From a virus: 24,682 bases of DNA. The position numbers and the translations under genes are program-made. Where the stretch lies: positions 1 to 24,682 of the IMG/VR virus record IMGVR_UViG_3300032069_000051. One strand, given 5' to 3'. Below, one piece after another: positions 1 to 24,682 of the stretch. Numbering within the stretch: position 1 is the stretch's first letter; each line of letters opens with the position of its first letter. Under the pieces are notes generated by a model, which saw only the letters and a list, made by a program, of their open reading frames with translations, did no database searches and had not been told where the DNA came from.

Positions 1-130
1 GTATCCAGATAACCTTTGATGGCATTAACCAGGCTGATTAAGCCGGTATCGGCTGTATCCAGATAACCTTTGATGGCATTAACCAGGCTGATTAAGCCGG
101 TATCGGCTGTATCCAGATAACCTTTGATGG
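1..130 (-). repeat. 54-bp tandem repeat, coding (18 aa per unit)
   Basis: Two identical 54-bp units lie at 1-54 and 55-108, followed by an identical 22-bp partial unit at 109-130. A more diverged partial match (CCAGATAATCTTCGATGACA) begins near 178. The unit length is a multiple of three, so copy-number change keeps the frame. Exact identity of the units suggests recent expansion or ongoing homogenisation. The array may continue beyond the window edge. Confidence 0.95.
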
Positions 131-5056: not shown

Positions 5057-6122
5057 CAGCCTTCTCCTTAGGTTTGATTTTCTTACGTCTTTTGACTCTC
5101 CACTTATAAATCTCTTTGAATTCAACCTGAATTCCGATGTCTCCAGCGGGCAGCACCCCGGGTGCTACCCCAGTGCAAATCACCTTGTAGATCGCCAGGT
5201 ATTCCGAGAAGTCGACCATCACGTAGAAGATAAATTGAGGCCCCACAAAGGCGGGCTCCCCCTCAGTGGTGTCCACAGAAATGGGTTTCTCCCCGATCAG
5301 GTAATTACCCACCTCCTTGCCTTCCTCGTCCAGAGCTATCTGTTTCCACACCCGGTATTCACGATCGGCGGCCTTGATCCGATCAGCCAGAATAGCCGCC
5401 TTTTCATCCACGATGAAGTAAGCAATATCCTCGGCATCATAGGGTTCCGCACCCTCAGTTTCAGATGGCTCCTCAAGCGGTGTTGGAGGATAAACCGTGA
5501 TTTTCAGATCAGCTTCGACTTCCTTGAGGGTGATGGCGGTCTCCAGATCCCCCTCCATTTCCACGGGAAATAGCAGAGTCTGCGACTCAAACTTGGCCGC
5601 AACGGAAAAAGATATTTTGTTTTCAGTCAGAACCGGAGTGTTGTCGGGCCCAGATCCCCCGTAGTAATAGACCAACTCCAGTGGGCCGACCTTAGCAAGC
5701 AAGGATTCCGGAGCAGCCTTCTTGGCGTCCTCGATCTGCCCTTCAATCTCCAGGTGAATATCCGCCGCATACTGGTCAAACAGCAGAAAGCCCATGTCAT
5801 CCACGGACAGATCACCGGACGGTGCATCTTCGGCGACCCGAGCCCCTTTAGGAGTTACTTGTCCCCTTTTCTTCATTCCGATCCGCACGGCAGCAATCTC
5901 AACCCTTTCCCCACTCAAGAGAGCCTCAGCAGACACCAGATCTGACCTCAAGGTTGAGAGTCCCCTGGTCAGCAGATTGATCTTCTCATCAGGGTTTTCC
6001 TTGCCGTCAGCCCCAGCCTGAACACCATCAATAAAGCTGATTTCCTTGTTCAGGAATCTCGCCATCTTACGGAGTCTCTCCTCATTCTCAATTGAGAGTT
6101 CTTGGTTCACTGACCTGTCCAT
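5028..6122 (-). CDS. Virion-associated protein whose 5' end is replaced by the TnpB element, ~364 aa
   Basis: The current frame can start at ATG 6122, inside the element, seven nt after GGGGAGG (6130-6136). This gives about 19 element-encoded residues (MDRSVNQELSIENEERLRK) before the host sequence MARFLNKEISF at 6065. An alternative start is ATG 6065 itself, behind GAGGAG at a longer spacing. Removing the element joins codons 1-12 at 7285-7250 (MNKKTKICPKCK) in frame to this ATG, restoring a 357-aa protein. The protein is acidic, with likely helical N-terminal segments and beta-rich blocks (KISFSVAAKFESQTLLFPVE), ending in a basic tail KWRVKRRKKIKPKEK. No enzyme motif is seen. Head or tail role is inferred from position. 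Confidence 0.75.
   Translation of the reverse strand: MDRSVNQELSIENEERLRKMARFLNKEISFIDGVQAGADGKENPDEKINLLTRGLSTLRSDLVSAEALLSGERVEIAAVRIGMKKRGQVTPKGARVAEDAPSGDLSVDDMGFLLFDQYAADIHLEIEGQIEDAKKAAPESLLAKVGPLELVYYYGGSGPDNTPVLTENKISFSVAAKFESQTLLFPVEMEGDLETAITLKEVEADLKITVYPPTPLEEPSETEGAEPYDAEDIAYFIVDEKAAILADRIKAADREYRVWKQIALDEEGKEVGNYLIGEKPISVDTTEGEPAFVGPQFIFYVMVDFSEYLAIYKVICTGVAPGVLPAGDIGIQVEFKEIYKWRVKRRKKIKPKEKADVGQAPAAA
6062..6070. repeat. 9-bp direct repeat at element ends (partner at 7246-7254)
   Basis: CCATCTTAC occurs at 6062-6070, abutting the conserved right terminus, and again at 7246-7254, across the left boundary. Recombination or precise loss between the two restores an in-frame gene. 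IS200/IS605 elements do not normally duplicate their target, so this may be chance start-codon context (AAGATGG) or a sign of a different insertion route. Confidence 0.6.
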
Positions 6123-6200
6123 TGACAAACCTCCCCAAGCTTAAATTCGGTAGCTCCTCTACCTACTTGTAAAATGTTAATAGATGCATTCAGGTCTCTG
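6071..6200 (-). ncRNA. Probable right-end guide RNA scaffold (omegaRNA/reRNA)
   Basis: In characterised TnpB elements the guide RNA scaffold covers the 3' end of tnpB and the right end, and its guide is the flanking DNA just beyond the terminus. This location is conserved between all four right-end copies here, more strongly than needed for a protein end because non-coding positions after the tnpB stop are also kept. It includes the palindrome TCTCAATTGAGA. The extent toward 6200 is a guess from known systems. No promoter or folding was computed. Confidence 0.4.
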
Positions 6201-7285
6201 TCCAACTCACTTTTACACTCTGGACATATCCACTGTCTATCATCTAGTTTCAAATCAGCATTGATATAACCACATACAGAGCATGTTTTGGAACTTGGAT
6301 AGAACATTGGTATCTTTCTAACTAGAACACCAGCTTCTTCCGCTTTGTATCCCAGTTTAGAAAGGAAACTAGACCATGAAGCATCCATAACTGACTTTGC
6401 TAAACTATGGTTTTTAGTCATACCTTTCACATTCAAATCTTCTACATATATCTTATCGTAATTATTAACTATGTTTCTACTCGCTTTGTGTAAGAAGTCG
6501 TTTCTCTGGTCTCTTATCTTCCTATGAGTCTTGGCTACTATCATTTTAGCTTTGTTCCTATTGTTAGAACCTTTGACTTTCCTTGACAACCTTCTCTGTC
6601 TTTTCTTAAGTACCTCTTCTGACTTTTGTAGATACCTTGGATTCTCTATCTTAGTACCATCACTTAAAGTAACAAAACTTTTTATACCTACATCTATCCC
6701 TACTTCTCTGTTAGTTTTTCTTTTCTTAATGTCTACATTCTTAATCACTGAAAAACATACATACCATCTGTCCAGTTCTCTCTTAACAGTACATGTCTTA
6801 ATTATGCCTTCTATATCCCTTGTTAACCTAATCTTAACACATCCTATCTTAGGTAGCTTAACCCTCTTGTTTTCAATTTTAACAGTACCTGTCGAGTATG
6901 TAAAACTATCATATCTATTCACTGACTTGAATCTAGGAAAACCAGCTTTGCCATTTCTCTTCTTAAGCCTGATAAAGAAATTTTGGAAGGCTCTATCTAC
7001 TCTATGCAAAACATCTACCAAACTCCAAGCATACACCTGTTTAAACTCTGGAAATTGTTCTTTAAAAGCAGGTAGTTCATATACTTGGTCATACCACCCC
7101 AAACTCTTCTTGCTCTGATTATAAGCTCGTATTCTCTGTTCTAATGCAGAATTATACAACTGATGACACAGATACAAAATCTGTTCTAACAACCTTTCCT
7201 GTTTCCTGGTTGGATACAGTCTGTACTTGTATGTCCTTCTTAGTTCCATCTTACACTTGGGGCATATTTTAGTTTTTTTATTCAT
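6107..7285 (-). CDS. tnpB: TnpB RNA-guided nuclease (IS200/IS605 accessory protein), 392 aa
   Basis: TnpB proteins are RuvC-like nucleases guided by an RNA from the element's right end. Here the first twelve codons (MNKKTKICPKCK) belong to the interrupted phage gene; the element-encoded part begins MELRRTYKYRLYPTRKQ. In the numbering from GTG 7288, the RuvC-I Asp lies in VGIDVGIKSF (D199), RuvC-II Glu in YVEDLNVKGM (E283) and RuvC-III Asp in ELDRDLNASI (D363/D365). The zinc finger cysteines are C336, C339, C355 and C358. Length and motifs are complete, so the nuclease is probably active. Translation starts at ATG 7285, or GTG 7288, overlapping the stop of the upstream gene (TGATG). The stop at 6107 overlaps the start of the downstream gene. 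Confidence 0.95.
   Translation of the reverse strand: MNKKTKICPKCKMELRRTYKYRLYPTRKQERLLEQILYLCHQLYNSALEQRIRAYNQSKKSLGWYDQVYELPAFKEQFPEFKQVYAWSLVDVLHRVDRAFQNFFIRLKKRNGKAGFPRFKSVNRYDSFTYSTGTVKIENKRVKLPKIGCVKIRLTRDIEGIIKTCTVKRELDRWYVCFSVIKNVDIKKRKTNREVGIDVGIKSFVTLSDGTKIENPRYLQKSEEVLKKRQRRLSRKVKGSNNRNKAKMIVAKTHRKIRDQRNDFLHKASRNIVNNYDKIYVEDLNVKGMTKNHSLAKSVMDASWSSFLSKLGYKAEEAGVLVRKIPMFYPSSKTCSVCGYINADLKLDDRQWICPECKSELDRDLNASINILQVGRGATEFKLGEVCQWTGQ
6130..6136 (-). promoter_or_regulatory. Shine-Dalgarno inside element right end, serving the downstream gene
   Basis: GGGGAGG on the minus strand lies 7 nt before ATG 6122. It is internal to the end of tnpB and is conserved as GGGGAG in the other right-end copies. 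The ATG opens a frame that crosses the element boundary into the interrupted gene, so the element supplies a replacement translation start. The ATG is conserved in the copies at 2525-2827 and 24612-24682 but is changed to AGG in the copy at 24511-24611. Confidence 0.6.
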
Positions 7286-8454
7286 CACTGGCTCACAAAG
7301 AGATTACGGAATAAGCTCCCTCTGGGGGAGGTTTTGAGTAAGACTGCCATGGGGAAATATGGCACCACCTGAACCGTTACGCTTCCCAGTTGACTGAACT
7401 CCCACTTAAACTTGGTCATCTGGTCCTGGATATGTGCCAGCAACTCAGCCAGCACAGTGTTCAATCTCGTAAAGTGGTCCAAGGTGTATTGAAACCCCTG
7501 ATCGCTGTAAGGCATCACATCGGTATCCACGGCGAAGAGCTTCTGGGACACCATGCCGACCACGGTCGCGCTGTTGATCAACAACTGCCCAAAGGTCTCA
7601 GGCCAGTTGTCCAACATAAAATTGGTCACAGGCGGGAACATGTTGACCTCATCCATCCCGCCCTGCAGGTAGTAAAATAGCTCAGCATCGGTGTATCCGA
7701 TGTTGCTTTTATCCGCAATCTTGACAGCCTTATCCATCTGCAGGCGCAGCCGGGGGAACCACTGGTAAACCGTATGGTTCAGCACCCAAAGCCAGCTGAT
7801 AGCAATGAATTGCTCACTCCCGGCATCGACCCCGTAGGACCACTGCAGCATGTATCTCTTAGGAGCGGAAGAGAACAGGTTCTGCGGAGGATAAACAGAA
7901 GGAAGGTCCACATAATAGACCCCGATAGCCTCCCGCTTAACCTGACCCTCCAGAAGACTGGCAGTATAGACAGTGTTCCCGCCGTCATCCGCTACGTTCA
8001 GACTGACCACCCCAGGGTCATAGGGCTGCCCGTCTTTGCTGATGAAGATTTTCGCCCGCTTGGGCACATTCTTCAAAGTGATAACGGTGGAGTCGGACCC
8101 TTCGGACCATATCCCGTCCTTGCATGCCCCAAAGCCAACGAAGTTGGCCGTGATCAACCCGACCTGAGTAGTCCCAAGTACGGTAAAGTTGTACCGTTGA
8201 GTGATGGAATTTACAGCCCCGCTTGCCTGCCAGGTCCAGTCATGTGACCAAGTCCCGGCCAAAGACCCTCCGGGTACAAAGTACTGCACGAAGAACCTTC
8301 CCGGAGCTGCCCGTTGTGGGGCCAGAGTTGCAACAGGACTTCCCAGAGGATCCCGGATGACAATGGGATCGATGTGAATGGGATCAAAGGACACCCCATT
8401 ATCGATGAAGGTAACCTCCAGAGTGGCAAGTTGATTTGGCCCAACTTCTAGCAT
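7285..8454 (-). CDS. Virion protein with Ig-like N-terminal region, 389 aa
   Basis: ATG 8454 overlaps the preceding stop (TGATG). The first 220 residues are beta-rich with the pattern of Ig-like or jelly-roll phage domains (LATLEVTFIDNGVSFDP, GRFFVQYFVPGGSLAGTW). The C-terminal 150 residues are more helical (RLRLQMDKAVKIADKS, FYYLQGGMDEVNMFPP, FTRLNTVLAELLAHIQDQM). No catalytic site or membrane anchor is seen. It lies midway between the capsid genes and the lysis-like genes, so neck, connector or tail-sheath-adjacent roles are possible. Its last codons overlap the 12 codons that feed tnpB, so it and the interrupted gene were once directly coupled. Family not recognised. Confidence 0.72.
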   Translation of the reverse strand: MLEVGPNQLATLEVTFIDNGVSFDPIHIDPIVIRDPLGSPVATLAPQRAAPGRFFVQYFVPGGSLAGTWSHDWTWQASGAVNSITQRYNFTVLGTTQVGLITANFVGFGACKDGIWSEGSDSTVITLKNVPKRAKIFISKDGQPYDPGVVSLNVADDGGNTVYTASLLEGQVKREAIGVYYVDLPSVYPPQNLFSSAPKRYMLQWSYGVDAGSEQFIAISWLWVLNHTVYQWFPRLRLQMDKAVKIADKSNIGYTDAELFYYLQGGMDEVNMFPPVTNFMLDNWPETFGQLLINSATVVGMVSQKLFAVDTDVMPYSDQGFQYTLDHFTRLNTVLAELLAHIQDQMTKFKWEFSQLGSVTVQVVPYFPMAVLLKTSPRGSLFRNLFVSQ

Positions 8455-12686: not shown

Positions 12687-14363
12687 TTATTTGACTCTTC
12701 TTAGACCGAAAGACGGGAGAGCAGCTCGGATTTGCTCGTCCGTCACAGTTTCTCCACCGCCAAGCAGTCCTGAGCCAGTCTTACCCAGAACCGCTGTCTC
12801 CCTCCGTTCAGCCCGAGGTGCCACGGCCACCACGTCCACAGGTTTGAGATCCCGGTTATCAGCCTCGATCTGAAGGAAAGCTTCGTCGGACAAATTGGTA
12901 AGCTTGTCCGCCGAAGTGAGCAGCTCATCCAGAACCTCTGAACCGAGGATCTTCTGGAAGGCCCTTTCAATCAGGTCCACAGCGATTTCCGACCTCACAC
13001 CCGCGTAACGAACTCCGGGTTGAATCAGGTGCTCGCACAACGCAGACTTTATCTTGAAAAGCCCCAGGGGCTCGATATTCAGCAACTGGCGTTTGGCGGC
13101 GAGCTTCAACGCCCTTGTAAATCTCTGCTGATAGAGCTTGAACTGCTCTTCAGCCTCTTTCTTGGATGCCGCCTTCAGATCCTCGATGCCCAGTTCCTCA
13201 GTGGTGATATCGGCAGCTGGGGGTTCCTCACCCTTGCCAGTGCCCTCATCCTTTCCGGCCTCTCCAGCGGGAGCAGCGACTTCCTCACCAGCAGGAGTTT
13301 CCTCGGCCTTGACGTCCTCGGCGATGTCCTTGACCTCGGTGACGATGGCATCAACCACCTCAGGTGGCGCATCGGGCAGGATGAATTCCGTCTTGAATTC
13401 ATCCGCGATGGCATCCGGCGTGGCCTTCTCTTCCGTGGTCTTGAAGATGATGACCTCTTCGGCCAGACCCTGTGTATCCACGTTCTCGGAATTTTCCTGG
13501 ATGTCATCAGCAAACTTTTCCAGCTTGCCATCACCCTCGATTGTCAGGTTGTTTCCAAAGACCCGCAGCACGGCCTCCTTGGAGGCTTCCTCGGGCAGGC
13601 AGAGGAATTTCTGGTAGAGTCCAGCCAGAGCACTTGCCAGCTTCCCCGTATGGAGATAATCTGACTTCTTGGTTCTCCTCTTCCCCTTTCCCACCTCCAC
13701 CTTCTTCTTGTCCACCTTGGCTTTGGCTTCCTTGTCCACAGGGACCTCGGGAGCTGCCGCTGCGGGTGCAGCCGCTGGCGCTGGAGGAATTGCCTCAGCC
13801 GCGGCCGGTTCCGGTGCCTTTACCTCATCCGCCTTCTTCCCTGCGGGAGGCTCGACAGGCTTCTCAGCCGCACTCAGCTTGGGCGATGGATGAGTCGCGT
13901 AGGAAGCAGGGGGTTCCGCCTTGTCCAGAGCACCATCGGCGGTGATGGACTGGTCCACATATTTCCCTGCATCATACTTCTCCGTCCCACCCTGCATCTT
14001 GTCCACGACCCCATTGGCAGTAGCCCGGTCGCCACGAGGCGCCAGATCCCCTACCTGCTTGGGGTCCTTGTCCAAGGTCCCATCCTCAGTGATGGCCTGG
14101 AATTTGGGGGTGAACGCATACTTCTTGGTGGTGAAGGCAAGGCCAAACTTCACGAGATCGTCAAAGACTCCCTCGGCAAAAGCCTTCTCTTTCTCAGCCC
14201 CAAGAACTTTACCGAAGATGCTCTTTTTGCCGTCGGTCAGAAGCGCAATCCTCTTATTGTCCTTCGCGTCTTGCACTTCAAGAACCCAAGACTGGTACGC
14301 AGGGAACTTTACATCCCCGGCAGTCTTGTCCAGTTTTTCGATAAAATACTCTCTCTTGGGCAT
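12687..14363 (-). CDS. Nested scaffold protein, 558 aa (internal start)
   Basis: ATG 14363 (MPKREYFIEKLDK) is in frame with the protease fusion and preceded by AAGAGGAGGAAGGAAA, an ideal ribosome binding site not needed for the long product. A protease gene containing an independently started scaffold at its 3' end is a known arrangement (lambda C/Nu3). The product has a small N-terminal domain (FPAYQSWVLEVQDAKDNKR), a Pro/Ala-rich hinge (PAAAEAIPPAPAAAPAAAAP), an acidic helical stretch and a basic C-terminus (ALPSFGLRRVK) that could bind capsid subunits. It should be made in excess over the fusion. Confidence 0.75.
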   Translation of the reverse strand: MPKREYFIEKLDKTAGDVKFPAYQSWVLEVQDAKDNKRIALLTDGKKSIFGKVLGAEKEKAFAEGVFDDLVKFGLAFTTKKYAFTPKFQAITEDGTLDKDPKQVGDLAPRGDRATANGVVDKMQGGTEKYDAGKYVDQSITADGALDKAEPPASYATHPSPKLSAAEKPVEPPAGKKADEVKAPEPAAAEAIPPAPAAAPAAAAPEVPVDKEAKAKVDKKKVEVGKGKRRTKKSDYLHTGKLASALAGLYQKFLCLPEEASKEAVLRVFGNNLTIEGDGKLEKFADDIQENSENVDTQGLAEEVIIFKTTEEKATPDAIADEFKTEFILPDAPPEVVDAIVTEVKDIAEDVKAEETPAGEEVAAPAGEAGKDEGTGKGEEPPAADITTEELGIEDLKAASKKEAEEQFKLYQQRFTRALKLAAKRQLLNIEPLGLFKIKSALCEHLIQPGVRYAGVRSEIAVDLIERAFQKILGSEVLDELLTSADKLTNLSDEAFLQIEADNRDLKPVDVVAVAPRAERRETAVLGKTGSGLLGGGETVTDEQIRAALPSFGLRRVK

Positions 14364-16439
14364 TTTCCTTCCTCCTCTTAGTTTTTCACTACCGTAGTGT
14401 TTGACCTTAGCTTCTTTATGTGCCTTCACTGGGGACGATCCAGGACTGGTTGCCACCTGAATCGGCTCCAGGATTTTCTTCATTTCCTCAACCTGATCGG
14501 GGGTAGGATACGCTCCCCCCTGTTGCCTCTGCAACCAGGCCTTGGCGTCATCCATGCTGTTGATCTTCTTGTCCTTGATGGCAATTCCAAAGTTGTTCCT
14601 CCAAGCCAGGTTTACCGGTGCATTCTTCATCTCAGTGGGCATAGCCGTGGAGCTTGGCGGGATGGCGGGAATAGCAGAAGGTCCTTCAGCGCGCAGAAAG
14701 CACCGGCCATAATGCTCATGCAAGACCTGGCTGTAAAGCAGATTCCCTTCCATCCTAGGCACACCCAATTGCTCTTCAATGTCCCCGATGATGACTTCCT
14801 TAGGGGTTCTCCGTATCGTGGCCCGAATCCAATTGATAGCCTCATCCACATTGTAGGAGAGTTTCTTGGAAGCGTGGGTGGGAGGCAAGTAGATTTCCTC
14901 AAAAGCGGGCCCCATATCCTCAGGAGCGGCCTTGCTGACATCGGGAGCGTGGGTTATGAAAGTGGCGGGTGCAATCTTGAACCACACACTGTTCTTGAAA
15001 CGTTCGACAAAATCTTTTTTGGCTTGAGGATTGGTCTTGGCCTGATTCCATTCGGTGGAGAGCCTGGCATATTCGGCCGCACGGTCTTGGAGCTCGTTTT
15101 GCAGATCTCTTACCGTCTCGGTATCCCCCATCTGGGTATTGACATCAATCCTCCGCAGGTATTCACTGTACCAAGGGGTGTCCTGGACCTCGGTTAAGAA
15201 CAGGGTATCGAAGAAGTCGTTGAGTTCCTCATCGGACATTTGCTTCCCCAGAAGATCTGTGGGATCCCCTTCCTCTTCAAAGCGCTGCACATACGGAACC
15301 CGGGTCGTCAGCCTTTCTGGATTGGCTTTGAGAGATTCAAGATCATCAAACCCCTCTTTCCCCTCTTCCAGTTTACGAAAACCAAGCACGTCCCAGAGTT
15401 GCTCGTTGTAGAACTTGAGGTCCTTGGGGGTCAGGTCCACCCATCTTTCCACCCGTTGATACTTGGGTTTACCAGTGGTCTCGTCTTTTCCAACTGGCAC
15501 GTTTTCGTAAATCAGTTGGGTTTGCTCGGGGTCAAAGTCAACCCGAATCTTTCTTCCGGCAATTTCGGCCACTTCCCCGATCAGCCCCCCACCCAGGTCG
15601 GTGATGTTATACTGGTTCTTGATCAGGGGAGACACCACCACATCACCAAGATCAATGGCCTGCCCAAGATCATTTTTGATGGCGGAGGCTACTTCCCTTG
15701 CTTTCACGGTGAAAATTCCGCTGAAACGTTTGACGGAGATGACGCTGGCCCTCTTGGAAGCTAACCTTTCTTCCTCAATTGCCGCAGGATCGGCGGGGTC
15801 TTGCACTCGGGAGATTTCATCGTAGCAGACACCGTAGCACCATTCAAACGCCAGCTTGAGCACGCCAGCGGCGGCCCGGTGCATCCTCATCTTGCCCTGC
15901 TTGATATGATCACAGAATTCTTTCTCAGTGTAGGCCTTGTTGCCGCAGACGTTGCATTCGGTCCAGTCCACGGTGCAACCCATGCTGAACTTGCCCTGGA
16001 CCTTTCCCTCCCTCACCAGCCTGCCGTAGATGGGATCCTTCTTGGTATCGACAGCAAGCACAACCTCCACATAAGGCTTGCCTTCCTTGGGCTGCTCCAA
16101 GTGAGCGTCAAGGATGAAGCCGTAGACTTTGCCATCTTGCTTGTGTTCGATGAAATGAGGTTTGAGAATGAAGGTTTGATAAACTTTGCACCCATACTTG
16201 GGATCAAAGCGTTCAAGCTCGTTCATCCGGAAGGCGTCACCGTTGTTGTTGGGCTCATCAGCGTGACAGGCAACGAGAACCAAGTAAGCGTAATCATCAG
16301 GATTGGAGGAGATCTCGTACTTACTTGCGACGATCTTGAGTGCCTCCTTGATGTTCATCCGTCCGCGCTTGGCATAAGCACCCAATGAAGAAAGTTCCCT
16401 CACGTCCTCGACAAGGCTTCCCGTTACATTTTTCCTCAT
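12687..16439 (-). CDS. Prohead protease-scaffold fusion, 1250 aa
   Basis: ATG 16439 follows AGGGGTA. Residues 1-220 match phage head-maturation protease layout: a candidate catalytic His in PHFIEHKQDGKVYG (H95/H99) and a Ser in GKFSMGC (S152). After that a zinc-like cluster C162, C165, C176 and H179 (CNVCGNKAYTEKEFCDH) follows. Residues 220-690 are a long charged middle. Residues 693-1250 form a scaffold-like region with a Pro/Ala/Lys linker (about 870-920) and helical, acidic segments. It lies between portal and capsid genes. The protease would cut scaffold and capsid precursors inside the prohead. The size is much larger than usual proteases (about 200-300 aa). A second start at 14363 gives the scaffold alone. 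Confidence 0.85.
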   Translation of the reverse strand: MRKNVTGSLVEDVRELSSLGAYAKRGRMNIKEALKIVASKYEISSNPDDYAYLVLVACHADEPNNNGDAFRMNELERFDPKYGCKVYQTFILKPHFIEHKQDGKVYGFILDAHLEQPKEGKPYVEVVLAVDTKKDPIYGRLVREGKVQGKFSMGCTVDWTECNVCGNKAYTEKEFCDHIKQGKMRMHRAAAGVLKLAFEWCYGVCYDEISRVQDPADPAAIEEERLASKRASVISVKRFSGIFTVKAREVASAIKNDLGQAIDLGDVVVSPLIKNQYNITDLGGGLIGEVAEIAGRKIRVDFDPEQTQLIYENVPVGKDETTGKPKYQRVERWVDLTPKDLKFYNEQLWDVLGFRKLEEGKEGFDDLESLKANPERLTTRVPYVQRFEEEGDPTDLLGKQMSDEELNDFFDTLFLTEVQDTPWYSEYLRRIDVNTQMGDTETVRDLQNELQDRAAEYARLSTEWNQAKTNPQAKKDFVERFKNSVWFKIAPATFITHAPDVSKAAPEDMGPAFEEIYLPPTHASKKLSYNVDEAINWIRATIRRTPKEVIIGDIEEQLGVPRMEGNLLYSQVLHEHYGRCFLRAEGPSAIPAIPPSSTAMPTEMKNAPVNLAWRNNFGIAIKDKKINSMDDAKAWLQRQQGGAYPTPDQVEEMKKILEPIQVATSPGSSPVKAHKEAKVKHYGSEKLRGGRKMPKREYFIEKLDKTAGDVKFPAYQSWVLEVQDAKDNKRIALLTDGKKSIFGKVLGAEKEKAFAEGVFDDLVKFGLAFTTKKYAFTPKFQAITEDGTLDKDPKQVGDLAPRGDRATANGVVDKMQGGTEKYDAGKYVDQSITADGALDKAEPPASYATHPSPKLSAAEKPVEPPAGKKADEVKAPEPAAAEAIPPAPAAAPAAAAPEVPVDKEAKAKVDKKKVEVGKGKRRTKKSDYLHTGKLASALAGLYQKFLCLPEEASKEAVLRVFGNNLTIEGDGKLEKFADDIQENSENVDTQGLAEEVIIFKTTEEKATPDAIADEFKTEFILPDAPPEVVDAIVTEVKDIAEDVKAEETPAGEEVAAPAGEAGKDEGTGKGEEPPAADITTEELGIEDLKAASKKEAEEQFKLYQQRFTRALKLAAKRQLLNIEPLGLFKIKSALCEHLIQPGVRYAGVRSEIAVDLIERAFQKILGSEVLDELLTSADKLTNLSDEAFLQIEADNRDLKPVDVVAVAPRAERRETAVLGKTGSGLLGGGETVTDEQIRAALPSFGLRRVK

Positions 16440-16510: not shown

Positions 16511-19500
16511 TTATTTAGGAGCCCCGCCACCTGCAGGTGCGGCAGGAGCGGTGGTTTCGGGAGGCGTTTCACCTGGCGTTTCAGCTACTGGTTCAGCCTC
16601 AGGAGGTGGAACTGCTCCCAGATCCAGCCCCGGAGGAGGTCCCCCCGGAGCCCCGAAGCTGCCACCACCCTCAGCTTTCTCCTCAAGCTGCTTGTAGTAG
16701 TTTATCTTATCCTTGACCCCGAACTCTTTGTCCAATTCCTCAAGTATTTCAGCCTCTTGCCTTGACTTAGTTTCCTGCTCTTCCCAGTCCAGACCCATGG
16801 AGGCGAGCACCTCAGACTTGCTGATGTTGATGCCCAACCGGGTCTTGATGTCGATGTAGGTCCGGACCTTGTCCGCATTGCTTTGAGAATCCAAGGACTT
16901 CTGCCAAACTATGGTTGGAATAATGTAGCGGTTGTCGTCGTTGAGTTCCCGCCTGCTCCGCCTGATCCTTACCCGATGGCTCAGTTCCGCTTGAGTTGGC
17001 TTGATCCAATCGTTTTTCTTAGCCATGACCCCGAAGAATCTTGGATACCACCAGATTTGCTCGAAGAATGAACGCATACCCCTTAAACGCTCCAGGAACA
17101 CCTGTAAGCCCTTTTCGGCTGAGGAGTTATAAGATGCCACATTATCTATGGTGTAGCTGTGGGTGCCCTTTACGGTTAAGCTGTAAACCTTAGGATATTT
17201 AGTTCTATCAACAAGGACAGACTTGACAGCCCTGACCCTGATATAGATGTAGTCGTCATCAACCCAAGCGTCCTTGCGCTCTCCCTTCACATCCTTCCTA
17301 GAGATACCCATCTTCCACATAACCCTTTTCCATACCGGATCCACATCCCCCCAAATCAACTTGAGTAGTTCAACCCCCCTCTTCCCGCATACAGCAAGTC
17401 TCCAAAGATCGTTATCCCCAAAAGACCCCCCACCCCAAGAAGCTCTCTTCTCAGCCGGGTCGCACCAAATAGTTGAAGGATACCCTAATTGGGCAAGAAT
17501 CAGTTCAACTTGTCGAATCAGCTGCTCTGATATGGAGCTATAGGCAACATCAGTAACTATAGTTGTTTTGTTCTTGCCTTTTCTTTGATGGTAATGTCCA
17601 TCACCCCGGAACATACCACGGATCAATTCCTTTTTGAGTTCGAGAGGCCAGTGCATAATTTCCTCAGACATCTTCTTATTAAGTGCTTCTCTCCCCGCAC
17701 TACTCTCCACCCAAGTCAAGAAATCCTTTCTCCGGTCCAAATCTCCAGAACAAGTTACCCAATAGCACCCATTTGCACCCGTGTATTGATCAATTTTTCC
17801 ACTAAGGTCGATAACCTGTAGGCATTTTACAACGTCTTGAGCATAGTAAAACTCCTTTTCATCTTTCCCAAAGGTGAGCACCATCGTTCTGGTCTTTCCG
17901 TTTTGGTTATAATTTATGTACCCTTCGGCTAAATAATAACCCAAAAATCGGGCCTGGGCTTTGGTTGTGTCATTAACTTGGATGTCGTTGACAGTGAACC
18001 GACGAGGAATCATTAAGTAGTCCCCCCGTCTTATGTCCCGAGCTTCCATTTCTTTATGAGGCTCATAATCGTCCAGGGTTCTTATTACCAAGGACCCCCC
18101 GTTCCTGTATTCTTTCCATACAGAAGGGTGTTCAGGATTCCGATGGTGCTTGTCGATAAAACTGTAACAATTTCCATGTCTATTATTTATTGGCCTTACT
18201 TTATTTGGAAGCTCCTTATCACACCCGCAAGCACAAGTTCTTGGAAGTGCAAAGACTGGAAAACGATGGTTTTCAGTCGTAAATAATTTCTTTCCACCGT
18301 AGGCTGTTATCTCAACTCCTTTTTCAGGAGCGTCAAAAGTCAAAACCTCTTCCACTTCTTGAGATGCGCCAAAGCGATCAATTACCTGATCTCCCTTTTG
18401 AACGTCCACGATGTGCTTCATCTCTCCATTACTTAACAGTATATTTGCGTTTTGATTAAAAACACAATATGTAACCTCCCCTGTCAAAAAGGCCTTGCTT
18501 ACCCCCAGAGCAATCAGCTTGATCCGCTCAATGATGTCCCACTCCTTGCTTACGGTCATGACCCTTTCGGTGGTGCCCCAAGCCTCGAAGTTGATCCCGT
18601 AGTGGTAGACCAACCAAGCATGAGGATCAGTTTCAGCCACGGCCAGCAGGTCCCTGAGCCTCCGTTCGTGCTCGGGCCCGGGGATCCACCCGGTAGCCGG
18701 GTTGCCCATCTTGACCACCTTGACCGGAGCTGCGTGCCGACGAGCGGTTTGAATGGTGTTAAAGGTCCCCACCCCGGACACCAGATAGCTGTGATCCCCG
18801 CTGACGGTCAGGTTGAAAACTTTGCAGTTTTTGTGCTTCAGTTCCACTTTCTTCACAGGGACATACACATAATTGTCGTCAACCCAGGCTCCCCTATCGT
18901 AGTACCTATTTTCATCCAACCCCTTTTGCCAAACCAGGTTTATGAGTTTTCGTGCAAAAACGTTTCCCACATCCACACAGTAGAGAAATTTATCCTTTCC
19001 GTTCTTGAGGAGGAACCCCCTGTTCTTATACTCATGGACAGAAGCAAAAATACCCAAATGGTGGAGGATAGCCATCACCTGATGAGCCAGAACGTAGGAT
19101 GCAGTGGCGTAGCGGGCGGAACAGGATTTTCCTCTTTGGGTGAAGGAACCGTCACCCCGGAATAGACCACGGATTAACTCAACCTTCAATTCCAGAGACC
19201 ACCCCATTACCTCAGCAGAGAGTTGCTTATACCGAGATCCAGTTCCCCCATGATAGGTCAACCAGGTGGACAACCACGCATACTCACGCTTAACAAAGTT
19301 AATGACACAGCTGTTCCGATCGGGTATCTCATATTGATGAGTTTCAACACTAAGCTCACTGCAAATACCACTTATATCTTTTATCCAGGAACCCTTTTCT
19401 CCTATGTTGAAAGTCCACTGAATCCCGAACCCGTCAAACCCCCTGAGCTTAACCTTACACCCCTCGGCCACATAATAACCAAGTAATCGGGCCTGATCTT

Positions 19501-21046
19501 TGTTTAATCCGGAGTAATCAGAAGGTTCAAAATAACGAGGGATCATCAGGTAGTCATGTTTTTTAAGGTTCTGCGCCTGCAACTCCTGATAAGGGTTATA
19601 CCCACAAGGGAAGGACCTCAGGGACCACCGTTCATTATTATCAGTCCCATAAGTCTTCCAAGTACTCGCCGTTCTCTTTATTCCCCTTGCCCTCGGGACC
19701 TTTATCTTGAGTTTCCCTCTTCTGTATGCAGTGTAGCAATTAGAGCACAATCCCAAAGCGTTATGAGAAATTTTAGTAGTCCCGCAGTTTATGCACTTTT
19801 CACTCTGAATGGACCAAGACCCCTTCTTTCCCACACTATGCAAAGGAAGAAAGGAAGACCGGTTGCTCACGTCTCCCCCGCAACCACACTGACACTTTCT
19901 CGGATAAGCAAACACAGGGAACCGATGGTGGGGAGTGCATTCAAAAGACATCCCCCCAAACAGGGTCACCTTTGCAATATCCTTCGCGTCCTCTTCCCAG
20001 GCGTCCTCCACGGCTTGAATATGACCATTGCGGTCAAGGACTCTATCCCCCACCTTAACATCCTCGATCTTGATAGGTTGGTATTTAGTATTGTATATTT
20101 CAGTTCCCTTAACGAAACATGCGTTAAAGACTGCATCCTCGAAGATGAGAGTACGCCACAGGCGGCTGAAGATGCTGATACCCCTTACATCGTAAGGAGA
20201 GAGCCGCCGGGGGATGAAGGTCACATTTTCCTCAGTGTTCAGGGGGATGCCCCGTCCATCCTGAAGCATCTGCATGAACTCAGTAGGCACGGCATCCCGG
20301 AACCTCTGATAGCGAGGATCAGGATTGGTGATGATTCTCCGGACCTCATTGGAGACATTGAGCTCCACATAAGGCTGAGTACCCACGAAGGGCACGTCCA
20401 CCACTTTGATATTCAAGGGGTCCTGGAATCCAAGGTAAATCCAACGTCCCTCTTCGTCATCCCAAATCAGATGGGGCAGGACTTCACCGTCCACCAGATA
20501 TCCGACCACCAACCAGCGGAAGTTGCCCAGGGCGTTGGTATCTTCCAGAGCCTTCCACATGTTATCCCGGATTTCCCCATCCACACCCTCTCCAGCCAGT
20601 TCAATATCGGAGAGCATCAGTTCGGCGTACATGTCGATCACGTTACCGCAGACGGGATCCAGGGCGTAGAAGTAACGCCAGAACTTCATGGCCTGACGAG
20701 GATCGGAAGGGAAGAACAGCCGGTCAGGAGACGCAAACTCAGGAATGTAAGGCTGTGGGACGGTTACGTTGACGTTGTAGCCAACCCCGGTGGGATTGGC
20801 AATACCAGAAGTAAAGTCAGCGGTCCTCTGAGAAGCGGCGGTCCTCTGAGAAGCGGCGGTCCTTTGCCCACTAGGGCGAGCCCGGGTCCCCCCGTTGGGA
20901 TCAGGAGCCCCATAAGATTCCGACCCATACCGGGATTCATAGAAGCGGAAAACCTCGTTGGTTAGCCAACTTGATGTATCCCCCAAGCGTATCAGCTGGG
21001 GGAAATAATTTTCCGGGTTGTCAAATTTCATGCCTTTCCGTTTCAT
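16511..21046 (-). CDS. Portal protein with two inteins, 1511-aa precursor (610-aa mature extein)
   Basis: The portal is the dodecameric ring through which DNA enters and leaves the head. ATG 21046 follows AGAGGAGGAATTGA. Extein N (residues 1-309) has a basic start, a triple QRTAAS-type repeat (61-76) and portal-like segments (FWRYFYALDPVCGNVIDMYA, GYLVDGEVLPHLIW). Extein middle (764-860) includes TIQTARRHAAPVKVV and the conserved LGVSKAFLTGEVTY. Extein C (1308-1511) starts SSAEKGLQVFLERLRGMRSF and ends in a Gly/Pro-rich tail. Inteins occupy 310-763 and 861-1307. Removing them leaves 610 residues, a normal size for a portal. It lies between terminase and prohead protease genes, as expected. 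Confidence 0.93.
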   Translation of the reverse strand: MKRKGMKFDNPENYFPQLIRLGDTSSWLTNEVFRFYESRYGSESYGAPDPNGGTRARPSGQRTAASQRTAASQRTADFTSGIANPTGVGYNVNVTVPQPYIPEFASPDRLFFPSDPRQAMKFWRYFYALDPVCGNVIDMYAELMLSDIELAGEGVDGEIRDNMWKALEDTNALGNFRWLVVGYLVDGEVLPHLIWDDEEGRWIYLGFQDPLNIKVVDVPFVGTQPYVELNVSNEVRRIITNPDPRYQRFRDAVPTEFMQMLQDGRGIPLNTEENVTFIPRRLSPYDVRGISIFSRLWRTLIFEDAVFNACFVKGTEIYNTKYQPIKIEDVKVGDRVLDRNGHIQAVEDAWEEDAKDIAKVTLFGGMSFECTPHHRFPVFAYPRKCQCGCGGDVSNRSSFLPLHSVGKKGSWSIQSEKCINCGTTKISHNALGLCSNCYTAYRRGKLKIKVPRARGIKRTASTWKTYGTDNNERWSLRSFPCGYNPYQELQAQNLKKHDYLMIPRYFEPSDYSGLNKDQARLLGYYVAEGCKVKLRGFDGFGIQWTFNIGEKGSWIKDISGICSELSVETHQYEIPDRNSCVINFVKREYAWLSTWLTYHGGTGSRYKQLSAEVMGWSLELKVELIRGLFRGDGSFTQRGKSCSARYATASYVLAHQVMAILHHLGIFASVHEYKNRGFLLKNGKDKFLYCVDVGNVFARKLINLVWQKGLDENRYYDRGAWVDDNYVYVPVKKVELKHKNCKVFNLTVSGDHSYLVSGVGTFNTIQTARRHAAPVKVVKMGNPATGWIPGPEHERRLRDLLAVAETDPHAWLVYHYGINFEAWGTTERVMTVSKEWDIIERIKLIALGVSKAFLTGEVTYCVFNQNANILLSNGEMKHIVDVQKGDQVIDRFGASQEVEEVLTFDAPEKGVEITAYGGKKLFTTENHRFPVFALPRTCACGCDKELPNKVRPINNRHGNCYSFIDKHHRNPEHPSVWKEYRNGGSLVIRTLDDYEPHKEMEARDIRRGDYLMIPRRFTVNDIQVNDTTKAQARFLGYYLAEGYINYNQNGKTRTMVLTFGKDEKEFYYAQDVVKCLQVIDLSGKIDQYTGANGCYWVTCSGDLDRRKDFLTWVESSAGREALNKKMSEEIMHWPLELKKELIRGMFRGDGHYHQRKGKNKTTIVTDVAYSSISEQLIRQVELILAQLGYPSTIWCDPAEKRASWGGGSFGDNDLWRLAVCGKRGVELLKLIWGDVDPVWKRVMWKMGISRKDVKGERKDAWVDDDYIYIRVRAVKSVLVDRTKYPKVYSLTVKGTHSYTIDNVASYNSSAEKGLQVFLERLRGMRSFFEQIWWYPRFFGVMAKKNDWIKPTQAELSHRVRIRRSRRELNDDNRYIIPTIVWQKSLDSQSNADKVRTYIDIKTRLGINISKSEVLASMGLDWEEQETKSRQEAEILEELDKEFGVKDKINYYKQLEEKAEGGGSFGAPGGPPPGLDLGAVPPPEAEPVAETPGETPPETTAPAAPAGGGAPK
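17126..18466 (-). mobile_element. Intein 2 in portal, LAGLIDADG type, 447 aa
   Basis: The intein runs from C861 (CVFNQNANILLSNGEMKHIV) to N1307, followed by Ser1308 as the extein nucleophile. Block B reads TTENHRFPVFALPR (923-936); the C-terminal block ends HSYTIDNVASYN, with Tyr1306 in place of the usual penultimate His. Endonuclease motifs are FLGYYLAEG (1034-1042) and LIRGMFRGDGHY (1141-1152). It shares many segments with intein 1 (RFPVFALPRTCACGC vs RFPVFAYPRKCQCGC; AWVDDDYIYIRV vs AWVDDNYVYVPV), so the two are paralogues. It lacks the second cysteine cluster of intein 1. It interrupts the conserved GEVTY/SSAE motif. Confidence 0.92.
18758..20119 (-). mobile_element. Intein 1 in portal, LAGLIDADG type, 454 aa
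   Basis: The intein runs from C310 (CFVKGTEIYNTKYQPIKIED) to N763, followed by Thr764 as the extein nucleophile. Splicing blocks are visible: block A at the start, block B with a TPHHRF motif (371-375), and block F/G near YLVSGVGTFN. The usual penultimate His is Phe here (F762). The endonuclease motifs are LLGYYVAEG (521-529) and LIRGLFRGDGSF (624-635). Between splicing and endonuclease regions lie cysteine pairs (C385/C387/C389 and C418/C421 with C434/C437), probably zinc-binding. It interrupts the portal at a conserved site (FNA/TIQ). Confidence 0.92.
20819..20866 (-). repeat. 18-bp coding repeat in portal N-terminus
   Basis: Nearly identical 18-bp units encode QRTAAS, QRTAAS and QRTAD in tandem at residues 61-77. 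The unit keeps the frame, so copy number could vary without breaking the protein. It lies in a Ser/Gly/Arg-rich, probably disordered stretch before the portal core. Confidence 0.85.
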
Positions 21047-23807: not shown

Positions 23808-24496
23808 TAGATGAGCTTCCTCCGGAAGTTGCGGTCCATCCGCTTGGTGTGTTCCACCACCCGGTCCCGCATCTTGCCGATAAGTTCTTCTTTTTCGGCC
23901 TCAGTCAGCTTGTTCTCAGTAAATCCCACAAATTCCCTTATGACTTCCTTGAAGAGGTTGATGAACTCCTGTTTGATGATTTCCTTGTTGACTTCCTTGG
24001 AGGCCTCGATCCGAGCGATATCAGCAGCGATGTGCACAATCGCGTTAGCAATCTTGGCATAGGTCTCAGAGTTGTCCTCGCTCATCTGCCCGCTGGTGGA
24101 CTTCTGGAATTCCTCAAACTGGGCGCTCAGAGCCACAAACATCTTCTTGAGCTTCTCCAGCATATCAAAGCTGTACTTGGCCCGGGGTGAGTACCGCATC
24201 TTTCCAGCGTAGGATTCCCCATCCTCACCACCCTCGGTCAGAATCGCCTTCTTCCCGGGCAGAGATCTCAAGACCTGGCACTGACGTTCATAGGCCAGGG
24301 TCTGGGCATGGTCCTGATGCCTCTTGTAATGCCGAAGCAGAGCCACCTTGTGCAGAGAGACCCCGGTTTCGGCAAACACCTTTTGCACCACCTGATCCAG
24401 AGTCAGGAAGTTGTCGTACTTATCCTTGTTGATGATCCGAGAGATGATCTCGTTGCTCGCGATGGCCTTGCAGACATTGCACCGGACATTAGGCAT
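23807..24496 (-). CDS. terS: Putative terminase small subunit, 229 aa
   Basis: ATG 24496 lies behind AGGAGGAATACTAG. The N-terminus carries a CxxC-HTH pattern: C6 and C9, then a helix-turn-helix-like segment (LTLDQVVQKVFAETGVSLHK) and a basic RHYKRHQDH with H56 and H60. This domain type binds DNA in many phage proteins. The C-terminal 130 residues are helical and charged, suited to ring oligomerisation and contact with TerL. It is coupled to terL. Small terminases vary greatly, so the assignment depends on domain pattern and position. Confidence 0.75.
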   Translation of the reverse strand: MPNVRCNVCKAIASNEIISRIINKDKYDNFLTLDQVVQKVFAETGVSLHKVALLRHYKRHQDHAQTLAYERQCQVLRSLPGKKAILTEGGEDGESYAGKMRYSPRAKYSFDMLEKLKKMFVALSAQFEEFQKSTSGQMSEDNSETYAKIANAIVHIAADIARIEASKEVNKEIIKQEFINLFKEVIREFVGFTENKLTEAEKEELIGKMRDRVVEHTKRMDRNFRRKLI

Positions 24497-24510
24497 CTAG
24501 TATTCCTCCT

Positions 24511-24611
24511 CGGAGTCTCTCTTTTGAGAGAGTTCTTGGTTCTTTGATCTGTCCCTTGACAAATCTCCCCAAGCGTAAATTCGGTAGCTCCTCTACCTAC
24601 TTGAAGAATAT
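24511..24611 (-). mobile_element. Right-end relic of TnpB element, copy A (101 bp)
   Basis: It matches the last 40 or so codons of tnpB and the element right end, from ATATTCTTCAAGTAGG to GAGACTCCG. The 6-bp stem TCTCTC/GAGAGA with TTTT loop at 24516-24531 is perfect. It abuts the terS ribosome binding site with one or two bases between. The internal ATG present in other copies is changed to AGG. Confidence 0.85.
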
Positions 24612-24682
24612 CGGAGTCTCTCTTTTGAGAAAGTTCTTGGTTCACTGACCTGTCCATTGACAAATCTCCCCAAGCTTAAATT
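24612..24682 (-). mobile_element. Right-end relic of TnpB element, copy B (truncated by window edge)
   Basis: The sequence from the window edge to 24612 matches the right end from the LGEICQW region to the CGGAGTC terminus, closest to the intact element in the GTCAGTGAACC stretch. Copy A follows directly, so the two are head to tail. Whether a full tnpB precedes it cannot be seen. Confidence 0.85.

Follow-up and report, generated by a model that had tools for sequence, protein, structure and literature searches.

A portal gene with two inteins

The sequence analysed here, a linear virus fragment 24,682 bases long and referred to as the window throughout, contains a portal precursor gene interrupted by two inteins, I1 and I2 (Table 1). 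The 610-aa sequence left after removal of both inteins matches the phrog_16240 portal protein (E 4.5e-74), and its alignment to the intein-free portal of Rctr197k, a virus from a DAMO enrichment culture (43.7%), is ungapped over the sites of I1 and I2, with the host protein restored by excision. The neighbouring genes (terminase large subunit, head maturation protease and major head protein) are consistent with portal identity. A sequence search for the portal among solved structures gave no match, and no close DNA-level match of the gene was found in isolated phages. Elsewhere in the window, an intact TnpB gene of IS605 type is accompanied by shorter relatives with internal deletions (direct repeats, 75–96% identity), which suggests that the fragment also harbours miniature versions of this element. 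A partial ORF has a perfect 54-bp tandem repeat at its end.

Table 1 Features of the window; a slash marks an intein insertion point or splice junction
Feature	Position	Strand	Remarks
Portal precursor ORF	16511..21046	(-)	1511 aa; 610 aa with both inteins removed; from the ORF list
N-extein	20120..21046	(-)	portal residues 1-309; ends ...FEDAVFNA
I1	18758..20119	(-)	454 aa, CFVKG...GTFN, +1 Thr, insertion point D
I1 block B TxxH	19925..19936	(-)	TPHH
I1 CxxC...CxxC zinc-finger-like insert	19709..19795	(-)	I1 residues 109-137; CINCGTTKISHNALGLCSNCY
I1 first LAGLIDADG motif	19460..19486	(-)	LLGYYVAEG
I1 second LAGLIDADG motif	19148..19177	(-)	LIRGLFRGDG
I1 block F	18785..18820	(-)	VFNLTVSGDHSY; Asn instead of usual Asp; block F His retained
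I1 C-terminus	18758..18769	(-)	GTFN; penultimate Phe
Middle extein	18467..18757	(-)	97 codons, between I1 and I2
I2	17126..18466	(-)	447 aa, CVFNQ...ASYN, +1 Ser, insertion point H'
I2 block A	18440..18466	(-)	CVFNQNANI; Val at canonical residue 1
I2 block B TxxH	18266..18277	(-)	TENH
I2 first LAGLIDADG motif	17921..17947	(-)	FLGYYLAEG
I2 second LAGLIDADG motif	17597..17626	(-)	LIRGMFRGDG
I2 block F	17153..17188	(-)	VYSLTVKGTHSY; Ser instead of usual Asp; block F His retained
I2 C-terminus	17126..17137	(-)	ASYN; penultimate Tyr
C-extein	16511..17125	(-)	begins SSAEKGLQ
Head maturation protease	12687-16439	(-)	empty SMG/C point kept (GKFSMGCTVDWTEC)
TnpB gene, IS605 type	6107-7288	(-)	intact
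Shorter TnpB relatives	about 2461-2831 and 24403-24682		internally deleted
54-bp tandem repeat	1-108		perfect

An earlier, sequence-only reading had placed two related inteins within 17126–20119, a range that comprises both inteins plus the extein between them. The lengths and coordinates it gave are borne out, as are the last Asn, the +1 Thr or Ser, Phe and Tyr in place of the penultimate His, the paired endonuclease motifs and the segments RFPVFA.PR.C.CGC, LIRG.FRGDG and AWVDD.Y.Y shared by I1 and I2. The intact first Cys that it assigned to both inteins is present in I1, at residue 1 in block A register, and not in I2, in which the Cys lies one residue upstream of register and Val occupies the position.

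I1 and I2 align over almost their entire length (30% identity, E 1e-49) and both retain the block B Thr and His, the block F His, the last Asn and the LAGLIDADG acids. LAGLIDADG_3 matches exceed the Pfam cut-off (E 4e-14 and 2e-12), and Intein_splicing matches lie below it yet are significant (E 2e-7 for I1, 4e-6 for I2). Both LAGLIDADG helices carry acidic residues in each intein (AEG, GDG), as in homing endonucleases. The AlphaFold models (pLDDT 84.5 for I1, 83.7 for I2) both match PI-SceI / VMA inteins in Foldseek with probability 1.00. The CxxC...CxxC insert, which is confined to I1, weakly matches an HNH endonuclease phrog (E 0.0024), and we infer a DNA-binding role for it. In the full-length family members compared, block B is followed by a PRxCxCGC motif and a His downstream of it; the motif is missing from mini-inteins of 135 aa (L094) and 210 aa (L020) and is therefore likely part of the endonuclease portion.

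Regarding class, the C-terminal Asn is followed by a +1 nucleophile in both inteins (N/T in I1, N/S in I2) and I1 has the class 1 Cys at residue 1; the penultimate His, which both lack, is usual and not obligatory in class 1. Class 3 inteins have Cys at block F:4 with Trp and Thr partners, whereas F:4 is Asn in I1 and Ser in I2, and class 2 inteins (KlbA type) lack a nucleophile at residue 1 and have Cys +1, whereas +1 is Thr or Ser here. With the class 1 LAGLIDADG inteins PI-SceI, TliVMA and PI-PkoII, I1 and I2 share a predicted Hint fold with an inserted two-motif endonuclease (Foldseek 1.00), and PI-PkoII is also matched by sequence profile (E 1e-13). In contrast to these inteins, to which identity is 11–15%, I1 and I2 lack the penultimate His, carry Asn or Ser for the block F Asp and contain the CxCGC motif of their family, and block A of I2 is one residue longer.

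A packaging-gene intein clade and its penultimate residue

A scan with I1 recovered one other kind of intein-bearing portal, and profile scans were extended to the portals of many large phage contigs, with inteins parsed by profile HMMs and E-values of the locus scans relative to candidates. Two trees were calculated, the first of 54 inteins and the second of 38 with more portal members. I1 and I2 both fall into one portal/terminase clade (100/100), which confirms the common ancestry proposed for them. The clade occupies nine points in portal genes of large uncultivated phages, defined by their flanking residues: A (PEFE/S), C (MYED/S), D2 (EDAVF/S), D (FNA/T or S), E (DPQ/S), F (GISK/S), G (HGE/S), H (TYA/S) and H' (TY/S, I2 only). 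Points C, D2 and D span no more than seven codons, and another cluster of about eleven codons comprises F, G, H' and H; the terminase has two points as well (L016/L017 and L026). Some portals (L018, L020) carry three family inteins each, and others (L011, L022, the window portal) carry two. About 16 of 34 distinct portals, on contigs found by portal rather than intein pattern, contain at least one intein, a figure that is no population estimate because the seeds were mostly intein-bearing. Bacterial and archaeal genomes were scanned for relatives and yielded none, matches in isolated phages were limited to distant inteins in other genes, and no account of this intein family was found in the open PMC set. 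The clade is specialised on packaging genes, the portal and less often the large terminase, of large uncultivated tailed phages.

Several inteins of other kinds or unusual form were encountered in these scans. L094 (7129–7533), whose portal is ~60% identical to the window portal over the N-part, carries a 135-aa Ser1 mini-intein without endonuclease, close to the smallest natural intein size quoted, 134 aa (PMC4031507). Several stretches resembling inteins of other kinds occur in the portal ORFs of L092 and L093; one 2051-aa frame (L092) has at least four. The SMG/C point of the head maturation protease, empty in the window, is occupied in many other large phages by mostly His-bearing inteins (L031–L083); terminase, portal and protease are therefore all intein targets. 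These protease inteins belong to the same superfamily and LAGLIDADG type, in a gene adjoining the portal, but form a separate clade (100/100) with mostly penultimate His and +1 Cys.

None of 30 clade members has a penultimate His (Tyr 21, Phe 6, Arg 1, Leu 1, Cys 1; L027_B and L131_X, portal inteins of other kinds with long branches and HN/C and SN/T junctions, are left out of clade counts), against 23 of 28 inteins outside the clade (Ser 4, Gly 1). Fisher's test gives 1e-11, which serves as description only because the sequences are related and were counted as such rather than as independent events. In the tree of 54 inteins, the His-less clade is one side of a 100/100 branch. Judged from these sequences, lack of the penultimate His is a trait of the clade, and an old one compatible with long-term function.

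Block F:13 is most commonly His (PMC4031507), and most clade members, I1 and I2 included, retain the block F His; F:4 is Asn or Ser in most members. In place of the block F His, the five closest relatives of I2 have Ser (L011, L086), Asn (L020) or Glu (L027, L094), which means that this His is not the only substitute. Pairs without penultimate His show dN/dS of ~0.1–0.4, indicating purifying selection, with a value of about 0.1 for L011_H/L086_H, which have penultimate Phe and belong to the subclade of I2; all values are rough, as synonymous sites are near-saturated.

The suggestion that the penultimate substitutions make splicing slow or conditional, and portal supply limited, finds no backing in these data: slow splicing is not implied, because related His-less inteins are under purifying selection and His is absent clade-wide. 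In known inteins, absence of the penultimate His is tolerated (PMC5050341), this residue can have effects in either direction and its role can pass to the block F His (PMC5050341; PMC4031507); in a mycobacteriophage intein with natural penultimate Gly, introduction of His slowed splicing (PMC5050341). Mycobacteriophage inteins (TerL, portal, RDF; Kelley et al. 2016, PMC5050341) likewise reside in phage packaging genes, with several terminase sites, and include class 1 inteins without penultimate His; set beside them by description, His varies across those inteins, whereas here an entire clade lacks it, with mostly Tyr or Phe instead.

Descent of I1 and I2

I2 groups with the site-H inteins L011, L020 and L027 in both trees, joined by L086 and L094 in the second (100/99). 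I1 joins L099, which is inserted two codons away in another phage (97/87, second tree); a position of I1 as sister of a terminase intein, weak in the first tree (73/83), was lost on adding L099. Branches are long (0.75–0.9), and support for the deeper branching order within the portal clade is poor. A tree comparison thus unites I1 and I2 in one clade and does not make them sisters: AU tests reject the sister arrangement (p 0.001 and 5.8e-5).

This bears on the proposal that one intein had been copied into the second site of the same gene. Near full-length homology and the shared lack of the penultimate His would fit such a copy, and the family does offer an example of ectopic movement. A single phage contig (3300009503_000018) carries L026 in its terminase gene and L032 at site H of its portal gene; they pair as sisters (100/99) at 39.5% identity and are, by the trees, the clearest case of spread between genes. 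For I1 and I2, however, the AU tests speak against copying, each intein is more closely related to inteins of other phages that sit at its own site or no more than a few codons away, and the flanks of the two sites have little DNA in common (8+5 identities of 24+24). No pair tried had the common flanking DNA that would mark ectopic homing. We therefore regard copying within the gene, combined with slow splicing, as very improbable; on this phylogeny, I1 and I2 are distant relatives and not a recent copy.

A single clade of site-H inteins is also rejected (AU p 2e-5), and point H has therefore been colonised repeatedly. Sisters at neighbouring points are found for L007 (H) and L019 (G) (100/99), and for L022 (C) and L023 (D) (97/96 in the first tree, 92/90 in the second). 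Ectopic intein movement is held to be very rare, with same-site inteins closer to each other than to those at other sites (PMC1635734). Prp8 inteins (seven sites, PMC6805012) and haloarchaeal MCM inteins (four close sites, PMC10643990) likewise occupy many points in one essential gene, but Prp8 inteins group by site, pointing to independent acquisitions, in contrast to the portal family with its divided site H and its sisters at neighbouring points. In haloarchaeal MCM, neighbouring intein endonucleases that are both active interfere with each other's homing (PMC10643990); by analogy, the same may apply to the points of I1 and I2, which are 291 bp apart.

The out-of-register first residue of I2

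Insertion point H' of I2 lies one codon upstream of H. Counted from residue 1, the conserved hydrophobic residue of block A comes at a spacing of 8 in 57 of 58 inteins; I2 alone has 9, its Cys being one residue upstream of the homologous residue 1 in all 57 other aligned inteins. Across the junction, TYCVFNQNANI of I2 aligns gap-free over TYASSYVDSNI (L094) and TYACSVDGTSV (L011), so that the Cys stands in place of the relatives' Ala(-1) and Val in place of their nucleophile Ser or Cys; in the AlphaFold models, the first strand of I2 is one residue more distant from the Cys than in I1. On the C-side, N/SSAEKG of I2 compares with N/SAEKG of L094, and the C-extein starts with one Ser more than in this closest relative (SAEKGLQ). 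A cut before the I2 Cys yields TYSSAEKG, equal in length to TYASAEKG of L094 and many empty sites; the 12 other site-H inteins all have their cut behind TYA, TYS or NYA, with products of one and the same length. An exact-pattern scan for a second portal with a TY/CV junction returned two DNA matches, both in short unrelated ORFs, and the shift rests on n=1 sequence. The residue-1 register holds Thr in L032 and Ser in L018 (site C), L027, L028 and L094, making the first residue unusually variable in the family; the L032 portal intein (5968–7353) has, besides this Thr, a Cys at position 3 (TYA/TLCKSAKIL).

The simplest reading of this register change would be a compensated one-codon shift. Tentatively, we take I2 for a working intein whose nucleophile and boundaries may lie one residue from where they once were, product length being kept by an added codon on the opposite side. 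Decay of I2, with residue 1 mutated to Val, the adjacent Cys there by chance and N-side splicing dead or poor, would account for a spacing seen only in I2, and on structural grounds a one-residue move of the nucleophile in an extended strand is expected to disturb the geometry. We nevertheless consider decay unlikely: the frame is open, block B, the block F His, Asn and both LAGLIDADG motifs are intact, the portal is essential for packaging, and decay does not predict an extra C-side Ser that restores the exact product length. Possible but doubtful is a fresh insertion of I2 one codon upstream in a TYSSA portal, followed by gain of a residue behind the Cys. Both Ser codons can pre-exist, as the L020 product TYSSAKSG (TYS/C...N/SAKSG) illustrates, and sisters a few codons apart occur elsewhere (L007/L019, L022/L023). 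I2, however, groups with the site-H inteins and aligns without gaps through the N-junction, and an in-place boundary change is therefore simpler.

Taken jointly, we consider it probable (roughly 70%) that I1 and I2, as members of the packaging clade, are active by the class 1 route, that they arrived independently and that the boundary of I2 shifted. Both are full-length LAGLIDADG inteins with probable splicing and endonuclease activity. The N-terminal Cys would form a thioester, Thr+1 (I1) or Ser+1 (I2) would accept the N-extein, and cyclisation of the last Asn, presumably with the block F His and the local fold assisting in place of the penultimate His, would release the 610-aa portal. The common ancestor of the clade had probably already swapped the penultimate His, mostly for an aromatic residue. 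I1 would belong with inteins of the insertion-point cluster around EDAVFNAT and I2 with a lineage resident at GEVTYA/S. The boundary of I2 would later have moved one codon N-terminally, making the Cys at the relatives' Ala(-1) the nucleophile and leaving Val at the old residue 1, while the extra Ser codon behind the intein would give the host its residue back.

The 30 His-less inteins constitute a natural test of Asn cyclisation without the penultimate His, and protein engineering may gain small Ser1 mini-inteins (135 aa) from the clade. With I2, the strictness of the first-residue register could be tested directly and, if the shift is true, intein 'sliding' could help explain sister inteins only a few codons apart in the family. 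With nine portal points, terminase and portal sisters in one phage and one site entered several times, all within one family, the steps of intein movement become traceable.
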